This document shows positions 3,424-18,397 of a stretch of DNA of 64,000 nucleotides, piece after piece; within the stretch, counting starts at the first letter, position 1, and every line of letters begins with the position of its first letter. The notes under the pieces are model-generated. The model worked only from the letters and a program-made list of their open reading frames with translations, searched no databases and was not told where the DNA came from. This DNA is from Solibacillus palustris. Its GTDB lineage: Bacteria > Bacillota > Bacilli > Bacillales_A > Planococcaceae. The DNA lies in NCBI RefSeq assembly GCF_022549215.1, contig NZ_JAKZFC010000001.1, positions 310,001 through 374,000 on the forward strand. Direction: 5' to 3'. A program made the translations under genes and the position numbers.

Positions 3424-4002
3424 TTGAACTTTCGTGGAATGACAGACGAGCAATTAGCAGAAGAGTCGTTAATCGACTTAGCATACGGAATTTTAGAAGA
3501 TAAAAAACAAGCAATGCCTTTAAATGATTTATTAAAAGAAATCCAAAAATTTAATGGTATATCAGAAGAGGACTTAAAATCACGCTTAGTACAATTCTAC
3601 ACAGACTTAAATGTAGAAGGGCGCTTTTTATTAAACCACGAAAATGGTTGGGGCTTACGTGAATGGTACAAAGTTGAAACAATTGAAGAAGAAACAGCAC
3701 CAACAATTAAAACACGTAAAAAGAAATCAAAAGTGGCTGACGATGAAGACGAAGATTTAGTTGAGCTTGATGAAGAAGATGTATTATTCGAGGAAGACTA
3801 CGATGAGTTCGTAGACAGTGAAGATGATGCAGATGATTCAGAAGAAGAAATCGATTTCGTTGAAGAAGATATCGAAGACTTAGATTCTGATATCGATGAA
3901 GAATTAATCGATGAAGAAGATGATAGCTTCATTGTTGAAGACGACGAAGACGTTGAAGAAGACGAAGACGAAGACGAGGAGTTTGACGACGAATTAAAAT
4001 AA
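3424..4002 (+). CDS. rpoE: RNA polymerase delta subunit
   Basis: Delta subunit of Gram-positive RNA polymerase, which speeds enzyme recycling and sensitises initiation to the first nucleotide. The N-terminal part (about 85 residues) is the HARE-HTH fold, and the C-terminal half is an almost unbroken Asp/Glu stretch, diagnostic for RpoE. The start is ambiguous. TTG at 3424 (protein MNFRGM) sits 10 bases from AGGA. GTG at 3415 is 6 bases from AAAGGA at 3403-3408. ATG at 3439 has no ribosome binding site. I chose TTG by similarity to the expected N-terminus. It is followed by the pyrG leader, as in B. subtilis. Confidence 0.93.
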   Translation: MNFRGMTDEQLAEESLIDLAYGILEDKKQAMPLNDLLKEIQKFNGISEEDLKSRLVQFYTDLNVEGRFLLNHENGWGLREWYKVETIEEETAPTIKTRKKKSKVADDEDEDLVELDEEDVLFEEDYDEFVDSEDDADDSEEEIDFVEEDIEDLDSDIDEELIDEEDDSFIVEDDEDVEEDEDEDEEFDDELK

Positions 4003-5981: not shown

Positions 5982-6095
5982 CTGAGGATGGAGGCCAGCA
6001 CGATGCTGGTCATGAATGCGTTGTCACATGATGTGACGATTTTAGCATTCGTTCTTATTCAGACCATCGCCTACAGTGGATTATTAATACATGAG
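5982..6095. repeat. Intergenic repeat, copy 1 (related to 40735-40870)
   Basis: Non-coding stretch between pyrG and the DUF2529 gene. The core at 6018-6062 contains TCACATGATGTGA, then TTTTAGCATTCGTT and TATTCAG. The same order of blocks occurs at 40783-40830. It looks like one member of a dispersed intergenic repeat family of the kind common in this bacterial family. Confidence 0.45.
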
Positions 6096-6101
6096 ACAAA
6101 C

Positions 6102-6133
6102 ACTGTCCAAAAAGTATTTACTTTTTGGACAGT
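6102..6133 (-). terminator. Terminator of the DUF2529 gene
   Basis: Perfect 15-base arms ACTGTCCAAAAAGTA and its complement with a 2-base loop, directly after the stop codon of the minus-strand gene. Confidence 0.7.
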
Positions 6134-6140
6134 CCTTTAC

Positions 6141-6704
6141 TTATGCAAATGGTGAAGTTATTTCTGATTCGTCCTCTTCATCATCATCATCTACCATTTC
6201 ATCAAATTCCATTTTGATTGCTTCATAAATATATAAAGCGGCCATAATATGTGGGAAAACAATGCGCTCGCTAAGTTTTGTAGGGTGCGGTAAAATTCCC
6301 CCACGCATTTTTAATGAAATGTATGTGTACGCTAAATTGCTTAATTCATTGTCTTCTGACGCTACTTCGCTTGCCACTGCAGCAAATGGAATAAAATCAG
6401 CATGTAATTTTTGTGCTAATTGTATTACTTGTGCATCATTTGCCTGACGTGTGAAAATAATGACACGGTCTGCAGGGATTAATTTTACTGAATCGTTATA
6501 ACGTGCAAATTTTGTGAACGGCTGTACACCCAGTTCTGCCTGCATCGAAATGGCATCCATTTCACCAAATGTTGCAAAGTAGACCGTTCCTTGACCAATT
6601 GCAGCTTGAGCAAGTAAACGTGCTGTTTCTTCAATCGCTTCTTCTTCTGATTGTCCGATACGCTGTAGAAGACCTGTTAATTGTGTTGTTAAAATTTTTG
6701 ACAT
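6141..6704 (-). CDS. ywjG: DUF2529 family protein (YwjG-like)
   Basis: 187-residue cytoplasmic protein on the strand opposite its neighbours, between pyrG and spo0F exactly where B. subtilis has ywjG. Family members have a fold related to sugar-isomerase (SIS) domains. Here an alternating pattern such as GTVYFATFGEMDAIS and DRVIIFTRQAND resembles the beta-strand/loop units of that fold. The C-terminal tail is very acidic (DDDDEEDESE). Biochemical function is unknown. A terminator hairpin lies just downstream. Confidence 0.8.
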   Translation of the reverse strand: MSKILTTQLTGLLQRIGQSEEEAIEETARLLAQAAIGQGTVYFATFGEMDAISMQAELGVQPFTKFARYNDSVKLIPADRVIIFTRQANDAQVIQLAQKLHADFIPFAAVASEVASEDNELSNLAYTYISLKMRGGILPHPTKLSERIVFPHIMAALYIYEAIKMEFDEMVDDDDEEDESEITSPFA

Positions 6705-6841: not shown

Positions 6842-7213
6842 TTGAAGGAAATTTTAATAGTAGATGATCAATCAGGTATTCGATTGTTACTGAATGAAGT
6901 ATTTAAAAAGGAAGGCTACAACACACATTTAGCAGCAAATGGTTTAGATGCATTAAAAATAGCGGAAACAGTCACACTGAATTGTGTATTATTAGATATG
7001 AAAATACCGGGTATGGATGGCTTAGAAATTTTAGCACGTTTAAAAATGATGCAGCCAAATTTACCGGTAATCATGATGACAGCTTATATTGAGCAGCATA
7101 TGATTGATAGCGCGACGGAACTTGGTGTCACAAAATATTTTGCAAAGCCATTTAATATTTTTGAGATGCGCGATGAAGTGGGGAAGATACTAGCTGTTAC
7201 AGAAAAAATATAG
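6842..7213 (+). CDS. spo0F: Sporulation phosphorelay response regulator Spo0F
   Basis: Single-domain receiver that takes phosphate from sporulation sensor kinases and passes it to Spo0B. 123 residues with the canonical acidic pair in ILIVDDQ, phospho-acceptor Asp in LLDMKIPGMDG, the Thr of MMTAY and the Lys of FAKPF. TTG at 6842 is chosen because AAGGGGG lies 6 bases before it; ATG at 6836 directly abuts that purine run. The gene sits between ywjG and fbaA as in B. subtilis and has its own terminator at 7229. Confidence 0.95.
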   Translation: MKEILIVDDQSGIRLLLNEVFKKEGYNTHLAANGLDALKIAETVTLNCVLLDMKIPGMDGLEILARLKMMQPNLPVIMMTAYIEQHMIDSATELGVTKYFAKPFNIFEMRDEVGKILAVTEKI

Positions 7214-7228
7214 TGAAAAACAAGTTAG

Positions 7229-7256
7229 CAGGCAGTAGCGCATACTGTCTGTTTTT
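7229..7256 (+). terminator. spo0F terminator
   Basis: Arms CAGGCAGTA and TACTGTCTG (one G-T pair) with a 5-base loop and a run of five T. Confidence 0.75.
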
Positions 7257-7396
7257 GTTATGATTAATCTGAATGTTTTTTGTCTTTTCAACTTTAAAAT
7301 TTTATGATTTCTGGCAAAAAACGCAGTACTTCAAAAAGTAATCTATTTTTTTACTTGTAGTAAACTAACTAACTATCTTCGAGGAGGATTTTAATA

Positions 7397-8251
7397 ATGG
7401 CATTAGTTTCGATGAAAGACATGTTAATTAAGGCAAAGGCAGAAGGTTATGCTGTTGGTCAATTTAACATCAACAACTTAGAGTGGACACAAGCAATTTT
7501 ACAAGCGGCAGAAGAAGAAAAATCACCAGTTATTTTAGGTGTTTCTGAAGGTGCGGGTAAATACATGGGCGGTTTCATCACAGTTGTGAAAATCGTTGAA
7601 GGTTTAATCGAGTCTTACAAAATTACAGTTCCAGTTGCAATTCATTTAGACCACGGATCAAGCTTTGATAAATGTAAAGAAGCAATCGATGCTGGATTCA
7701 CTTCAGTAATGATTGATGCTTCTCACCACTCATTCGAAGAGAACGTAGCGATTACAAAAGAAGTTGTAGAATATGCACATGCTAAAAATGTATCAGTTGA
7801 AGCAGAATTAGGTACAGTTGGTGGCGAGGAAGACGGCGTAATCGGTGGTATTATGTACGCGAATCCACAAGAATGTAAAGCGTTAGTAGAAGCAACAGCA
7901 ATCGACTGCTTAGCTCCTGCACTTGGCTCTGTGCATGGTCCATACAAAGGTGAACCAAACTTAGGTTTCGCTGAAATGGAAGAAATCTCTACATTAACTG
8001 ACTTACCTTTAGTATTACATGGCGGTACTGGTATCCCAACAAAAGATATCCAACGTTCAATTTCTTTAGGTACAGCCAAAATTAACGTAAACACTGAAAA
8101 TCAAATCGCGGCTACAAAAGCTATCCGTGAATTTTTAGATAACGACAAGAAAACTTACGATCCACGTAAATTCTTAGGCCCAGCTCGTGAAGCGATTAAA
8201 ACAACTGTAATCGGTAAAATGCGCGAATTCGGCAGCTCTCAAAAAGCGTAA
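7397..8251 (+). CDS. fbaA: Class II fructose-bisphosphate aldolase
   Basis: Zinc-dependent cleavage of fructose 1,6-bisphosphate into the two triose phosphates in glycolysis, and the reverse in gluconeogenesis. 284 residues, normal for the Bacillus type. Visible motifs: [10 protein letters not shown] (catalytic Asp and zinc His), [14 protein letters not shown], and VLHGGTGIP near the phosphate site. Strong ribosome binding site GAGGAGGATTTT. Downstream are two hairpins and then transaldolase, with class II FBPase glpX further along. Confidence 0.97.
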
Positions 8252-13141: not shown

Positions 13142-13342
13142 ATGAAACAAGGTATCCACCCAGATTACAAAACTGCAACAGTAACTTGCTCTTGCGGTAA
13201 CTCATTTGAAACTGGTTCAGTAAAAGAAAAGATCGTTGTCGAGTTCTGTAACGAATGTCACCCATTCTACACAGGTCGTCAAAAGTTCGCTTCTGCTGAC
13301 GGTCGTGTTGATAAATTCAACAAAAAATACGGTATCAAGTAA
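13142..13342 (+). CDS. rpmE: Ribosomal protein L31, zinc-binding (C+) type
   Basis: 66-residue large-subunit protein. The zinc ribbon is visible as CSCG near residue 16 and CNEC near residue 36, so this is the zinc-containing form, as opposed to the zinc-free paralog (YtiA type) made under zinc starvation. Conserved [10 protein letters not shown] and [11 protein letters not shown] follow. It has its own promoter and terminator. Position between rho and tdk matches B. subtilis. Confidence 0.97.
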
Positions 13343-13349
13343 TATCGTG

Positions 13350-13382
13350 ACCCATTTTCACATTTGTGGAGATGGGTTTTTT
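13350..13382 (+). terminator. rpmE terminator
   Basis: ACCCAT with ATGGGT and an inner CA/TG step, followed by six T. Confidence 0.75.
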
Positions 13383-14532: not shown

Positions 14533-15609
14533 ATGTTTGATCGTTTACAAGCGGTTGAAGACCGTTACGAAAGATTAAATGAATTACTAAGTGATCCGGA
14601 TATCGTTAGTGATTCGAATAAATTACGCGAGTATTCTAAAGAACAGTCGGATATTCAAGAGATGGTAGACGTATACCGCGAATACAAATCCGTAAAAGAG
14701 CAATTAGCTGATACACGTGAGCTGATGGAAATGGAAAAAAATGCAGATATGCTAGACATGATGAAGGAAGAGTTTAATGATTTAAACAAACAAATTCCTG
14801 ATTTAGAGGATCGTCTACGTATTTTATTAATTCCAAAAGACCCGAACGACTCTAAAAACGTAATTATGGAGGTTCGTGGCGCAGCAGGTGGGGACGAAGC
14901 AAATATTTTTGCGGGCGACTTATTCCGTATGTATACACGCTATGCAGAAACGCAAGGCTGGAAAATCGACATTATGGAAGCCACGCCAAACCCTGCTGGT
15001 GGATACAAAGAAGTGATCTTCATGATTAATGGTCAAGGTGCTTATTCAAAATTCAAGTATGAAAACGGCGCACATCGTGTACAACGTGTCCCAGCGACAG
15101 AGTCACAAGGCCGTATTCACACGTCTACAGCAACAGTAGCGTGTTTACCAGAAGTACATGTTGAAGAAGTAGAAATTCATGAAAAAGATATCCGTGTAGA
15201 CACATTCGCATCATCTGGTGCAGGTGGTCAATCGGTAAATACAACGATGTCTGCCGTACGTATGACTCACTTACCAACAGGGGTTGTCGTGTCGATGCAA
15301 GATGAGCGTTCACAAATTAAAAACCGTGAAAAAGCGATGAAAATTTTAGTGGCACGTGTAGCGGATAAACACCGTGCTGAGGCGCAAGCAGAAATCGATT
15401 CTACACGTAAGTCGGCAGTTGGAACAGGCGACCGTTCTGAGCGTATCCGTACTTACAACTATCCACAAAACCGTGTAACAGATCACCGTATTGGTTTAAC
15501 GATTCAAAAATTAGACCAAATCGTTGAAGGGAAGCTGGATGAAATTATTGATGCACTCATTTTAGATGAGCAAGCAACACGCTTAGCGAACTTAAACGAA
15601 AATGCATAA
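14533..15609 (+). CDS. prfA: Peptide chain release factor 1
   Basis: Recognises UAA and UAG stop codons and triggers peptide release. 358 residues. Domain order is normal: helical N-terminus, the codon-recognition domain, and the peptidyl-release loop GGQ at residues 231-233 ([10 protein letters not shown]). Ribosome binding site AGAGGTG. The stop codon overlaps the start of prmC, so the release factor and the enzyme that methylates its GGQ glutamine are translationally coupled. Confidence 0.97.
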
Positions 15610-16456
15610 AACAATTTTTGAGGCCCTTAATTGGGCTTCTTCTTTTTTAGAGGACAATGGTCGCGAAGGAAATGCCGCAAGATTATTATTGCAGCATGTA
15701 TTGCAAACAAATTATTCTGGCCTAATGATGAAAACGCATGATGAAATTTCAGCAGAACAGATGCAACAATTTACTGCTTATATCGAGGCCCATGTAAAAG
15801 GACGCCCAGTACAATACATTACAGGTGTTGAAGAATTTTATGGTCGTATATTTGAAGTAGATGACTCGGTATTAATTCCACGTCCTGAAACAGAGGAATT
15901 AATTGTGGGAACAATAGAGCGCATCAATCAATTATTTAACAATAATGATTTAACGCTTGCTGATATTGGAACGGGTAGCGGTGCTATTGCGATTACGATG
16001 AAAAAGGAATGTCCCAATTTAGCTATTACGGCAACCGATCTTTCAACAGCCGCACTAAAAACAGCGCAGAAGAATGCGGATAATTTACAGGCAGAACTTA
16101 CATTTATTGAAGGAGATTTAACAGCACCAATAGCCCATCAAAAATGGGATATTGTTTTATCGAATCCCCCGTATATCGCGTTTGATGATATGGCTTCAAT
16201 GTCCGATGTTGTTGTCGAGTATGAGCCGCATAGCGCATTATTTGCTGAAGAGGATGGACTTATTTTATATCGTAAATTGGCAGAACAATTGCCACCACTT
16301 ATGAATACACCAGGTTTGATTGGCTTAGAAATCGGTTATACACAAGGGGATACGGTAGCAAATTTCTTCCGTGAGCATTTCCCACAAGCACAAGTTTCTG
16401 TTGTAAAAGACATTAATGGCAAAGATCGTATGGTATTTTGTGAAATTACTGAATAA
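15602..16456 (+). CDS. prmC: Release factor glutamine methyltransferase
   Basis: S-adenosylmethionine-dependent N5-methylation of the GGQ glutamine in RF1 and RF2. 284 residues: a helical N-terminal substrate domain, then a Rossmann methyltransferase domain with SAM motif [12 protein letters not shown] and the catalytic NPPY. RPETEEL, typical of PrmC, is also present. It overlaps prfA by 8 bases. Confidence 0.95.
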
Positions 16457-16500: not shown

Positions 16501-17097
16501 ATGTTAAATGATTACGAGATTATAAAAAAATCAAAATGGTGGATTGCTAGCTGGAAGTTGCTCGCAATGACATTTGTTTTATATAGTGCATTAATAATGA
16601 TTCCAACTGTTGTAGCGGATGTACAGGCTGAACGTCAGCAGTTAAATGAACAATTGAAGATACGTGTGATTGCAAATAGTTCATCAAAGGCTGATCAGCT
16701 TATAAAGCAGCAAGTTGTGGATAATATTCAATATTTCATTGAAAGTTCAGACGAGTGGACTGTGGATAATCAAGGAATGGAACGGATTGTTCAAGAAATT
16801 CAAAAAAATTACCCACAATTAAAATTCCGCTATGAATTTGGGGATAACTTAATGCCACCGAAATGGCAATTTGGTGAGTTTTATCCACAAAATCATTATT
16901 ATTCTGTGAACTTTATTATTGGACAAGGGCGCGGAGAAAATTGGTTTTGTTCAGTATTTCCAACGCTTTGTGTACCGAAAAAACAAGAAGTAAGTGAACG
17001 TCCGCAATTTTATTTGAACGAATGGTGGAACAAAAAGAAAAATAAAAATAATCCACAAATTTCAGAAAATTACCCACAGTCACCTGTGAATTATTAA
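16501..17097 (+). CDS. spoIIR: Stage II sporulation protein R
   Basis: Forespore-secreted signal that activates the SpoIIGA protease to process pro-sigma-E in the mother cell. 198 residues from ATG 16501, which has GGGGGAGAG just ahead. One N-terminal hydrophobic segment (residues 18-38) serves as signal/anchor. The SpoIIR core is recognisable from RVIANSSSKADQ and the tryptophan/cysteine motif NWFCSVFPTLC. The C-terminal tail is lysine- and asparagine-rich. The coding DNA holds several DnaA boxes. Confidence 0.9.
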   Translation: MLNDYEIIKKSKWWIASWKLLAMTFVLYSALIMIPTVVADVQAERQQLNEQLKIRVIANSSSKADQLIKQQVVDNIQYFIESSDEWTVDNQGMERIVQEIQKNYPQLKFRYEFGDNLMPPKWQFGEFYPQNHYYSVNFIIGQGRGENWFCSVFPTLCVPKKQEVSERPQFYLNEWWNKKKNKNNPQISENYPQSPVNY

Positions 17098-17393
17098 CGA
17101 TTTGTGGATATAGTACAGAAAAATTTAGAGAAAGAAGCAGAATAAATGGAGACGTTATTATTAACTGTGGATGAATTTGTGGATAATTCAGAAAATTATA
17201 CACAAGCGGTAGATTTATTAAATAATGGGGAAGTTGTAGCTTTTCCTACTGAAACGGTTTACGGTTTAGGGGCAGTAGCAACGGATGAGCAAGCGGTAAA
17301 GAAAATATTTACTGCGAAAGGTCGACCGTCTGATAATCCACTGATTGTCCATATTGGAACAATTGAAGAAGTGGAAGACTATGCTGTGGATAT
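16716..17393. promoter_or_regulatory. DnaA-box cluster over spoIIR-ywlC
   Basis: Perfect TTATCCACA boxes (either strand) lie at 16716-16724, 16761-16769, 16881-16889 and 17178-17186. One-mismatch boxes lie at 16809-16817, 17049-17057, 17070-17078, 17103-17111, 17166-17174 and 17385-17393. That is ten boxes in about 680 bases, far above chance. An isolated further perfect box lies at 18256-18264. My recollection is that ywlC is one of the DnaA-binding loci outside oriC in B. subtilis. Confidence 0.75.
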
Positions 17394-18180
17394 CCCTGAA
17401 GTAGCAAAGAAATGTATGGAAGCGTTTTGGCCAGGGCCGCTAACATTAGTGATGAATGTGAAGCCAAATGTATTGGCAGCTAGTGTGACGCCTGGTATGC
17501 AAACAGTAGGACTTCGAATGCCGGATCATCCTGTTGCACTAAATTTGTTAAAAGTATTAAAAAAACCATTAGCTGCACCAAGTGCAAATCGTAGTGGGAA
17601 ACCAAGTCCAACGAAGGCAATTCATGTATTTGAGGATTTACAAGGTATTATTCCTTGTATTTTAGATGGTGGAATGACTGGAATCGGTGTGGAATCAACG
17701 GTGCTTGATGTGACATTAGATCAACCTGTTATTTTACGTCCAGGCGGTGTGACAAAGGAAATGCTTGAGCAAGTGATTGGTTCAGTATTAGAGCCGAACT
17801 TTGAGCAACAAAAAATTGAATCAACACCAAAAGCACCAGGCATGAAATATACGCATTATGCCCCGGATGCACCGGTCTATTTAATTGATCAAGACAAGAA
17901 TCAAATCGAGTGTGCGGTAGAAAAGTTACAGCAACAACAGCATAAGGTAGCCTTGCTTGCCCCACAAAAATTTGACGATGTAAATGCCGATTATTTTTTC
18001 TCATTTGGGGATGAACATGAGCTAGAGCAAATGAGCGGTAAACTATACGATGCGTTACGTGCATGCGATAAAACGGATGCAACAATTATATTAGCAACTG
18101 TAACTGAGCGAAAAGGTGTCGGTACAGCTATTATGAACCGCCTCGAAAAAGCAGCGGGCGGCAATTGGTATCAACAATAA
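17146..18180 (+). CDS. ywlC: L-threonylcarbamoyladenylate synthase (Sua5/YwlC type)
   Basis: Makes threonylcarbamoyl-AMP from threonine, bicarbonate and ATP, the first step of t6A37 tRNA modification. 344 residues: a YrdC domain with FPTETVYGLG and KGRPSDNPL, SANRSGKPSPT, then a linker (PGMKYTHYAP) and the Sua5 C-terminal domain. The long two-domain form is normal in Bacilli. ATG at 17146 has only a weak AAAGAAG upstream. DnaA boxes overlap its first codons. Confidence 0.95.
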   Translation: METLLLTVDEFVDNSENYTQAVDLLNNGEVVAFPTETVYGLGAVATDEQAVKKIFTAKGRPSDNPLIVHIGTIEEVEDYAVDIPEVAKKCMEAFWPGPLTLVMNVKPNVLAASVTPGMQTVGLRMPDHPVALNLLKVLKKPLAAPSANRSGKPSPTKAIHVFEDLQGIIPCILDGGMTGIGVESTVLDVTLDQPVILRPGGVTKEMLEQVIGSVLEPNFEQQKIESTPKAPGMKYTHYAPDAPVYLIDQDKNQIECAVEKLQQQQHKVALLAPQKFDDVNADYFFSFGDEHELEQMSGKLYDALRACDKTDATIILATVTERKGVGTAIMNRLEKAAGGNWYQQ

Positions 18181-18397
18181 TGAAATCCATATTTTACACG
18201 GATGATGTGTAGAATGTGGATTTTTTTGCGTTAAAGAAAAGATTGAAATTCGTATTGTGGATAACTTAAGCACTTAGGTTTATACACCTAAAAAATTAGA
18301 CTTCAGTTAGCATTGGCGTATTTGAATAGGGTAACGCATACCGTATAAGAGGAATGTATTTTTGTGATTAACAAAAAATAAATGAAAGAAGGCCTTT

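Follow-up and report, generated by a model that had tools for sequence, protein, structure and literature searches.

In a 64,000-nucleotide stretch of the Solibacillus palustris genome (the window; C1:310001-374000), we identified a compact and widely conserved array of DnaA boxes whose sequence is conserved at silent sites inside coding sequence. Between positions 16716 and 17393, the array comprises 12 boxes (TTATCCACA, with at most one mismatch), four of them perfect, with five boxes on the plus strand and seven on the minus strand (Table 1). Among these boxes, seven reside in spoIIR, four in ywlC, and one in the 48-bp gap between the two genes, such that 11 of the 12 are coding. An earlier note on this DNA had counted ten boxes, four of them perfect and on both strands, together with a further perfect box at 18256, and had placed all of them in coding sequence; the perfect copies, the strands, and the box at 18256 stand as described, whereas the number within the cluster rises to 12, and the boxes at 17103 (in the gap) and 18256 (downstream of ywlC) are not coding. 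We consider it likely that the array is bound by DnaA and represents the host family's version of the ywlC cluster of Bacillus subtilis, acting as a sink for DnaA and repressing ywlC; binding, titration, and repression are inferred here from B. subtilis.

Table 1. Genes and DnaA boxes at the ywlC locus (window coordinates) and further DnaA-box clusters of the same genome (coordinates within the locus named)
Feature	Coordinates	Strand	Context or support
prmC (release factor glutamine methyltransferase), upstream neighbor	15602..16456	+	TIGR03534, 278.5 bits (cut-off 199.1)
spoIIR (stage II sporulation protein R), divergent	16501..17097	+	PF09551, 53.2 bits (above cut-off); 7 boxes
ywlC (tsaC/Sua5), threonylcarbamoyl-AMP synthase	17146..18180	+	TIGR00057, 216.1 bits (cut-off 123.2); 4 boxes
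DnaA box, perfect	16716..16724	-	spoIIR, reads VVDN
DnaA box, perfect	16761..16769	-	spoIIR, TVDN
DnaA box, 1 mismatch	16809..16817	+	spoIIR, NYPQ
DnaA box, 1 mismatch	16839..16847	-	spoIIR, FGDN; identical in the 6 aligned genomes
DnaA box, perfect	16881..16889	+	spoIIR, FYPQ
DnaA box, 1 mismatch	17049..17057	+	spoIIR C-terminal tail, NNPQ
DnaA box, 1 mismatch	17070..17078	+	spoIIR C-terminal tail, NYPQ
DnaA box, 1 mismatch	17103..17111	-	spoIIR-ywlC gap
DnaA box, 1 mismatch	17166..17174	-	ywlC +20, TVDE
DnaA box, perfect	17178..17186	-	ywlC +32, FVDN
DnaA box, 1 mismatch	17196..17204	+	ywlC +50, NYTQ
DnaA box, 1 mismatch	17385..17393	-	ywlC, AVDI; same place in 2 of 14 other genomes of the genus
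Outlying DnaA box, perfect	18256..18264	-	downstream of ywlC
Eight boxes after tsaD	L084 (G000:C5:1-10000) 3706-3908		convergent ABC-F gene beyond a small reading frame
Eight boxes just upstream of rlmH (yydA)	L082 (G000:C41:38000-52000) 7102-7509		
Eight boxes upstream of GntR-like regulator/ABC transporter operon	L083 (G000:C2:18000-30000) 6059-6330	-	regulator matches below cut-off

The identification of the locus as ywlC is based on (i) the TIGR00057 match above its cut-off, (ii) the position beside spoIIR, and (iii) comparison with the published table of B. subtilis DnaA-binding regions (Table 1 of that source). The named relatives found, two Lysinibacillus odysseyi strains, share 73-75% identity over YwlC; their loci (L031 and L032, with 8 and 6 boxes) were excluded from all tallies below. 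Expression of spoIIR is forespore-specific. The encoded SpoIIR scored 56.7 bits against TIGR02837, under the cut-off of 151.9, over residues 26-158; it is distant from the curated model, and its C-terminal tail, past the matched stretch, carries two of the boxes.

To compare the density of boxes here with the background and with oriC, a check that the earlier note had proposed, we scanned the whole genome (3,994,581 bases in 42 contigs), which contains 59 perfect sites and 1277 perfect or one-mismatch sites, versus 1418 perfect or one-mismatch sites for the reversed pattern. Since the genome-wide total is not raised relative to this control, the excess of boxes is local and the motif is concentrated. 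Indeed, 0.22 boxes are expected per 678 bp, where 12 are present (Poisson P ~2e-17, and ~1e-13 after counting windows). In 400 kb of background (20 stretches of 20 kb; 678-bp windows at steps of 100 bp), every window contained 0, 1, or 2 boxes, such that random windows do not approach the density seen here, whereas the best 678-bp windows at four other cluster sites contained 9 (upstream of dnaA), 8, 8, and 8 boxes; these sites were chosen for closely spaced perfect boxes, a choice that clusters of one-mismatch boxes alone would escape. The ywlC array is the densest cluster within the DNA read (the window and 456 kb of further stretches), and it is an extra-oriC cluster, with dense boxes far above background and the oriC-type clusters on another contig. 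One-mismatch sites are common in this genome, as the total of 1277 attests, and could in principle cluster by chance; this explanation is already refuted by both the Poisson value and the conservation of the array in 28 of 48 genera, and we give it essentially no weight.

To examine this conservation, we collected YwlC loci from all 195 genomes searched (81 plus 114 new ones, the order sample being drawn evenly from a larger group) and counted boxes within ~760 bp around the ywlC start. At least four boxes were present in 160 of the 195 loci, fewer than four in 35, and none in 27. The median was at least four in 28 of 48 genera, including 13 of the 19 genera of the host family, where counts were grouped by genus with no other correction for shared ancestry and most class-level genera comprise one genome. 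The expectation of a conserved site at this locus was thus borne out. In the DNA of the 195 loci, the real motif occurred 1195 times, compared with a mean of 43 for 100 letter-permuted motifs. The top permuted motif, TTTCCACAA, had 481 sites and reached at least four in 56 loci, while the next had 142; we attribute the high count of TTTCCACAA to the fact that it overlaps the true box at a one-base offset.

Within the window's genus, all 15 genomes carry 8 to 11 boxes per locus, and the ywlC boxes at +20, +32, and +50 are found again at identical codon positions in many genera. In other families, the boxes lie mostly from ~190 bp upstream to 60 bp downstream of the ywlC start. The most upstream box has a median position of -352 in the host family versus -180 in 14 loci of other families, and the extension in the host family reaches ~430 bp upstream of ywlC; this long extension into spoIIR is characteristic of the host family. 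Individual boxes turn over. In an alignment of six genomes, the minus-strand box of the window at about -385 has its counterpart in three of the five relatives in a plus-strand box offset by a few bases, as expected if the number of boxes matters more than their exact place.

Since 11 of the boxes are coding, we investigated codon usage at the conserved positions. The valine codon of the +20 box was GTG in 146 of the 150 genomes with valine there (184 aligned), where codon use elsewhere in each gene predicts 32.8, and that of the +32 box was GTG in 100 of 109 genomes with valine (23.9 expected). No excess was seen at two control valines of this gene (GTG in 20 of 124, with 29.5 expected, and in 19 of 182, with 42.2 expected). 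Moreover, in all 135 genomes (15 genera) in which the +20 pair is Val-Asp, the valine codon was GTG, while the aspartate codon showed a small excess (GAT in 115 of 135 versus 101.8 expected; 5 of 19 in genus g14). A loss of boxes in relatives at silent positions, which the earlier note had named as evidence against a conserved site, was thus not seen at the box valines. Synonymous shuffling of 115 spoIIR genes left 140 boxes where 334 are observed, and that of the first 300 nt of 163 ywlC genes left 124 where 434 are observed; such within-gene shuffling is conservative, because the box codons remain in the pool. For the window itself, the excess was modest, with 7 boxes in spoIIR versus 4.1 after shuffling (37 of 5000 shuffles reached 7) and 4 in ywlC versus 1.3 (23 of 5000 reached 4). 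The protein sequence (YPQ and VDN) therefore carries part of the signal and silent sites the rest. Selection appears to act on the DNA.

A shared codon register also seemed noteworthy at first. All 11 coding boxes of the window share one register, as do 418 of 434 boxes in ywlC and 256 of 334 in spoIIR across the host family; this evidence proved weak, since background reading frames (which include non-genes) favor the same register (48 of 76). The shared register could also be read as a sign that the repeated YPQ and VDN peptides are selected at the protein level, with the DNA motif as a by-product. About four of the seven spoIIR boxes follow from the protein sequence alone under synonymous shuffling, and one box-less genome (L087, genus g10) retains Val-Asp in the YwlC N-terminus, both of which fit peptide selection. 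It is, however, opposed by (i) the GTG preference at box valines and not at control valines, (ii) the continuation of the array in the prmC-ywlC gap where spoIIR is absent, and (iii) the lack of the VDN/YxQ pattern in one g4 and one g16 YwlC N-terminus read. We thus regard peptide selection as very unlikely.

The second of these points comes from genus g8, in which none of the 33 loci has a spoIIR match, yet all 33 have at least four boxes; these occupy the prmC-ywlC gap, which holds 70 of 103 upstream boxes, and the last part of prmC. The idea that loss of the array follows loss of spoIIR does not hold strictly, as 38 of 50 spoIIR-negative loci have at least four boxes, while 13 of 134 spoIIR-positive loci have fewer than four (184-locus cross-table, with 11 class-level loci outside it). 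In genera g9, g13, and g16 (two loci each), prmC nearly abuts ywlC (medians 10-24 bp), and 0 or 1 box is present. Genus g10 is mixed, with 0 to 8 boxes in five loci. Genus g4 retains spoIIR and has no boxes in any of its seven loci. In three g4 genomes (G017, G035, and G139), perfect boxes are grouped at spacings similar to those near dnaA in the host genome; from these oriC-type groups, recognized by their spacing, DnaA specificity in g4 is probably unchanged, and the array is thus dispensable. In addition, box counts fall as the G+C content of the locus rises (Spearman -0.66 across 19 host-family genera), so that compositional drift could account for some of the loss. One g16 genome without a ywlC array has 21 perfect boxes within ~9 kb (G046:C78:51754-60835), possibly its oriC region.

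In B. subtilis, the corresponding cluster is region 6, located upstream of ywlC and downstream of ywlB, for which Smith and Grossman (2015; PMC4447404) give nine predicted sites in 300 bp and an apparent in vitro Kd of 0.25 uM with ATP, placing it among the top DnaA-binding regions. The statement in the earlier note that ywlC is a DnaA-bound locus in B. subtilis is therefore correct. The two clusters share the same gene and a dense arrangement of boxes, and in relatives of the host the site is likewise origin-proximal. They differ in that the B. subtilis cluster is listed as intergenic, whereas 11 of the 12 boxes here are coding and extend back into spoIIR, with no ywlB in between.

Other DnaA-box clusters of the genome follow the B. 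subtilis pattern in part. Clusters lie on both sides of dnaA, whose neighbor we take to be dnaN, on contig C41. By neighboring genes, the tsaD/ABC-F cluster matches B. subtilis gcp/ydiF (region 4), the rlmH cluster matches yydA (region 8), and a jag-mnmE group of only three boxes matches region 5; thus four of the six non-oriC B. subtilis regions 3-8, including ywlC, have a matching box group in this genome. The sda/yqeG cluster of B. subtilis has no counterpart at yqeG here, with one box in the 3,489 bases covered. The cluster upstream of the GntR-like/ABC operon, which does not appear among the B. subtilis table regions consulted, is possibly lineage-specific. Each of the four clusters with a B. 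subtilis match has an RNA-modification gene as its neighbor (tsaC, tsaD, mnmE, and rlmH). Between jag and mnmE, two perfect boxes abut head to head (L081, G000:C41:1-20000, 13335-13352), and such pairs also occur in two g4 genomes, in one on its oriC-type contig (G035:C39:12452-12469) and in the other on a different contig (G139:C8:1158758-1158775). Although spoIIR is present, no match to Sda (PF08970) was found in the whole genome; the host may lack the sporulation checkpoint that DnaA activates in B. subtilis.

With 12 boxes against nine in the cluster upstream of dnaA, the array could be viewed as a cryptic or former replication origin. The boxes here, however, do not flank dnaA, which resides on C41 with its own clusters. 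Moreover, in all 35 single-contig genomes of the host family, the site lies 0.35-1.02 Mb from dnaA, at 0.22-0.48 of the replichore (with genome length rounded for ten of the 35); the host genome itself is a 42-contig draft. An origin of this kind is accordingly highly improbable. The oriC-type clusters of the same genome are of similar box density and differ in that they flank dnaA and lie mostly between genes. In two single-contig genomes of other families, the locus lies at 68 and 108 kb, with no array. The origin-proximal position could be explained by conserved gene order alone.

Among systems outside Bacillus, datA, DARS1, and DARS2 of Escherichia coli are likewise box-containing loci outside oriC that adjust the available DnaA; datA and the DARS sites are described as noncoding and as working with IHF or Fis, whereas 11 of the 12 boxes here are coding, which sets the array apart from them, and B. 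subtilis lacks IHF according to one review. Nor does anything at the present locus point to a conversion of the DnaA nucleotide state. The origin-proximal enrichment in E. coli (Olivi et al. 2025; PMC12371093) resembles our finding in that a high density of boxes near the origin is conserved, a feature argued to favor titration, and differs in that density was taken in windows of 2-10 centisomes rather than in one compact array; in its text, the word "synonymous" is absent, and "coding" occurs three times. In our literature search, whose coverage leaves out most subscription journals, no paper contained both "DnaA box" and spoIIR, and neither titles nor the openings of abstracts pointed to work on how far the ywlC cluster is conserved beyond B. 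subtilis or on boxes that shape coding sequence, which is weak evidence of absence.

In the mechanism that we favor, DnaA would bind along ~500-680 bp, from the 3' part of spoIIR across the 48-bp gap to the first codons of ywlC. Each new copy of the locus, made fairly early in the replication round, would add about a dozen DnaA-absorbing sites, and the ywlC array together with the tsaD/ABC-F, rlmH, jag-mnmE, and GntR-like/ABC clusters would withdraw DnaA from oriC and thereby delay re-initiation. The bound array would also cover the probable ywlC promoter region and repress ywlC. Given the sporulation role of spoIIR and the gap of only 48 bp before ywlC, the vegetative ywlC promoter probably lies in the 3' part of spoIIR, under the array, which would explain why the array enters coding sequence in the host family. 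Our scan of the locus returned no convincing ywlC promoter, with promoter-like sites fewer than in shuffles, and the terminator scan was uninformative.

Alternatively, the array could be a regulatory site that only represses ywlC, with inconsequential titration and with its conservation reflecting DnaA control of t6A synthesis. B. subtilis ywlC is apparently repressed directly by DnaA (PMC4447404), and a mutant in which DnaA is raised about twofold showed reduced expression of a PywlC-lacZ fusion (-240 to +73) (PMC12112137). A purely local role would also suit the placement of boxes around the ywlC start outside the host family and the absence of the array where prmC nearly abuts ywlC. The ~430-bp upstream extension in the host family, however, exceeds the need of one promoter, and several unlinked clusters coexist in the genome; according to PMC5295017 and PMC13220808, removal of six extra-oriC clusters from B. 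subtilis led to early initiation, an effect that was strong only with all six gone. One review assigns extra-oriC clusters no significant role in the control of B. subtilis initiation. We regard repression alone as possible, although somewhat doubtful, and retain the combined reading of a DnaA sink that also represses ywlC.

In summary, the array is a known kind of site, and the novelty, as far as the literature was searched, lies in how widely it occurs across genera, in its location within two genes, and in the conservation measured at silent sites. That the boxes are kept at silent positions suggests that a DNA-binding code shapes the proteins that it overlaps. In annotation, neither the variable parts of SpoIIR nor the N-terminus of YwlC should be taken as purely protein-level features. 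The presence or absence of the array across genera is an evolutionary readout of dependence on DnaA clusters outside the origin, for which genera without it, such as g4 and g13, serve as natural deletion experiments. More broadly, the locus presents a chromosome-replication site that evolves inside genes, with its conservation measurable at silent codons and at the ends of the encoded proteins. We lean, by a little, toward the wider reading that a replication-control array is written through two genes and held there by selection on DNA, fixing silent codons and dictating VDN- and YPQ-like motifs both in a sporulation protein and at the N-terminus of a tRNA-modification enzyme; this would hold for many of the family's genera and, as regards the ywlC part, outside the family as well. 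Given the box groups beside tsaD, mnmE, and rlmH, DnaA availability and RNA modification may be coupled.
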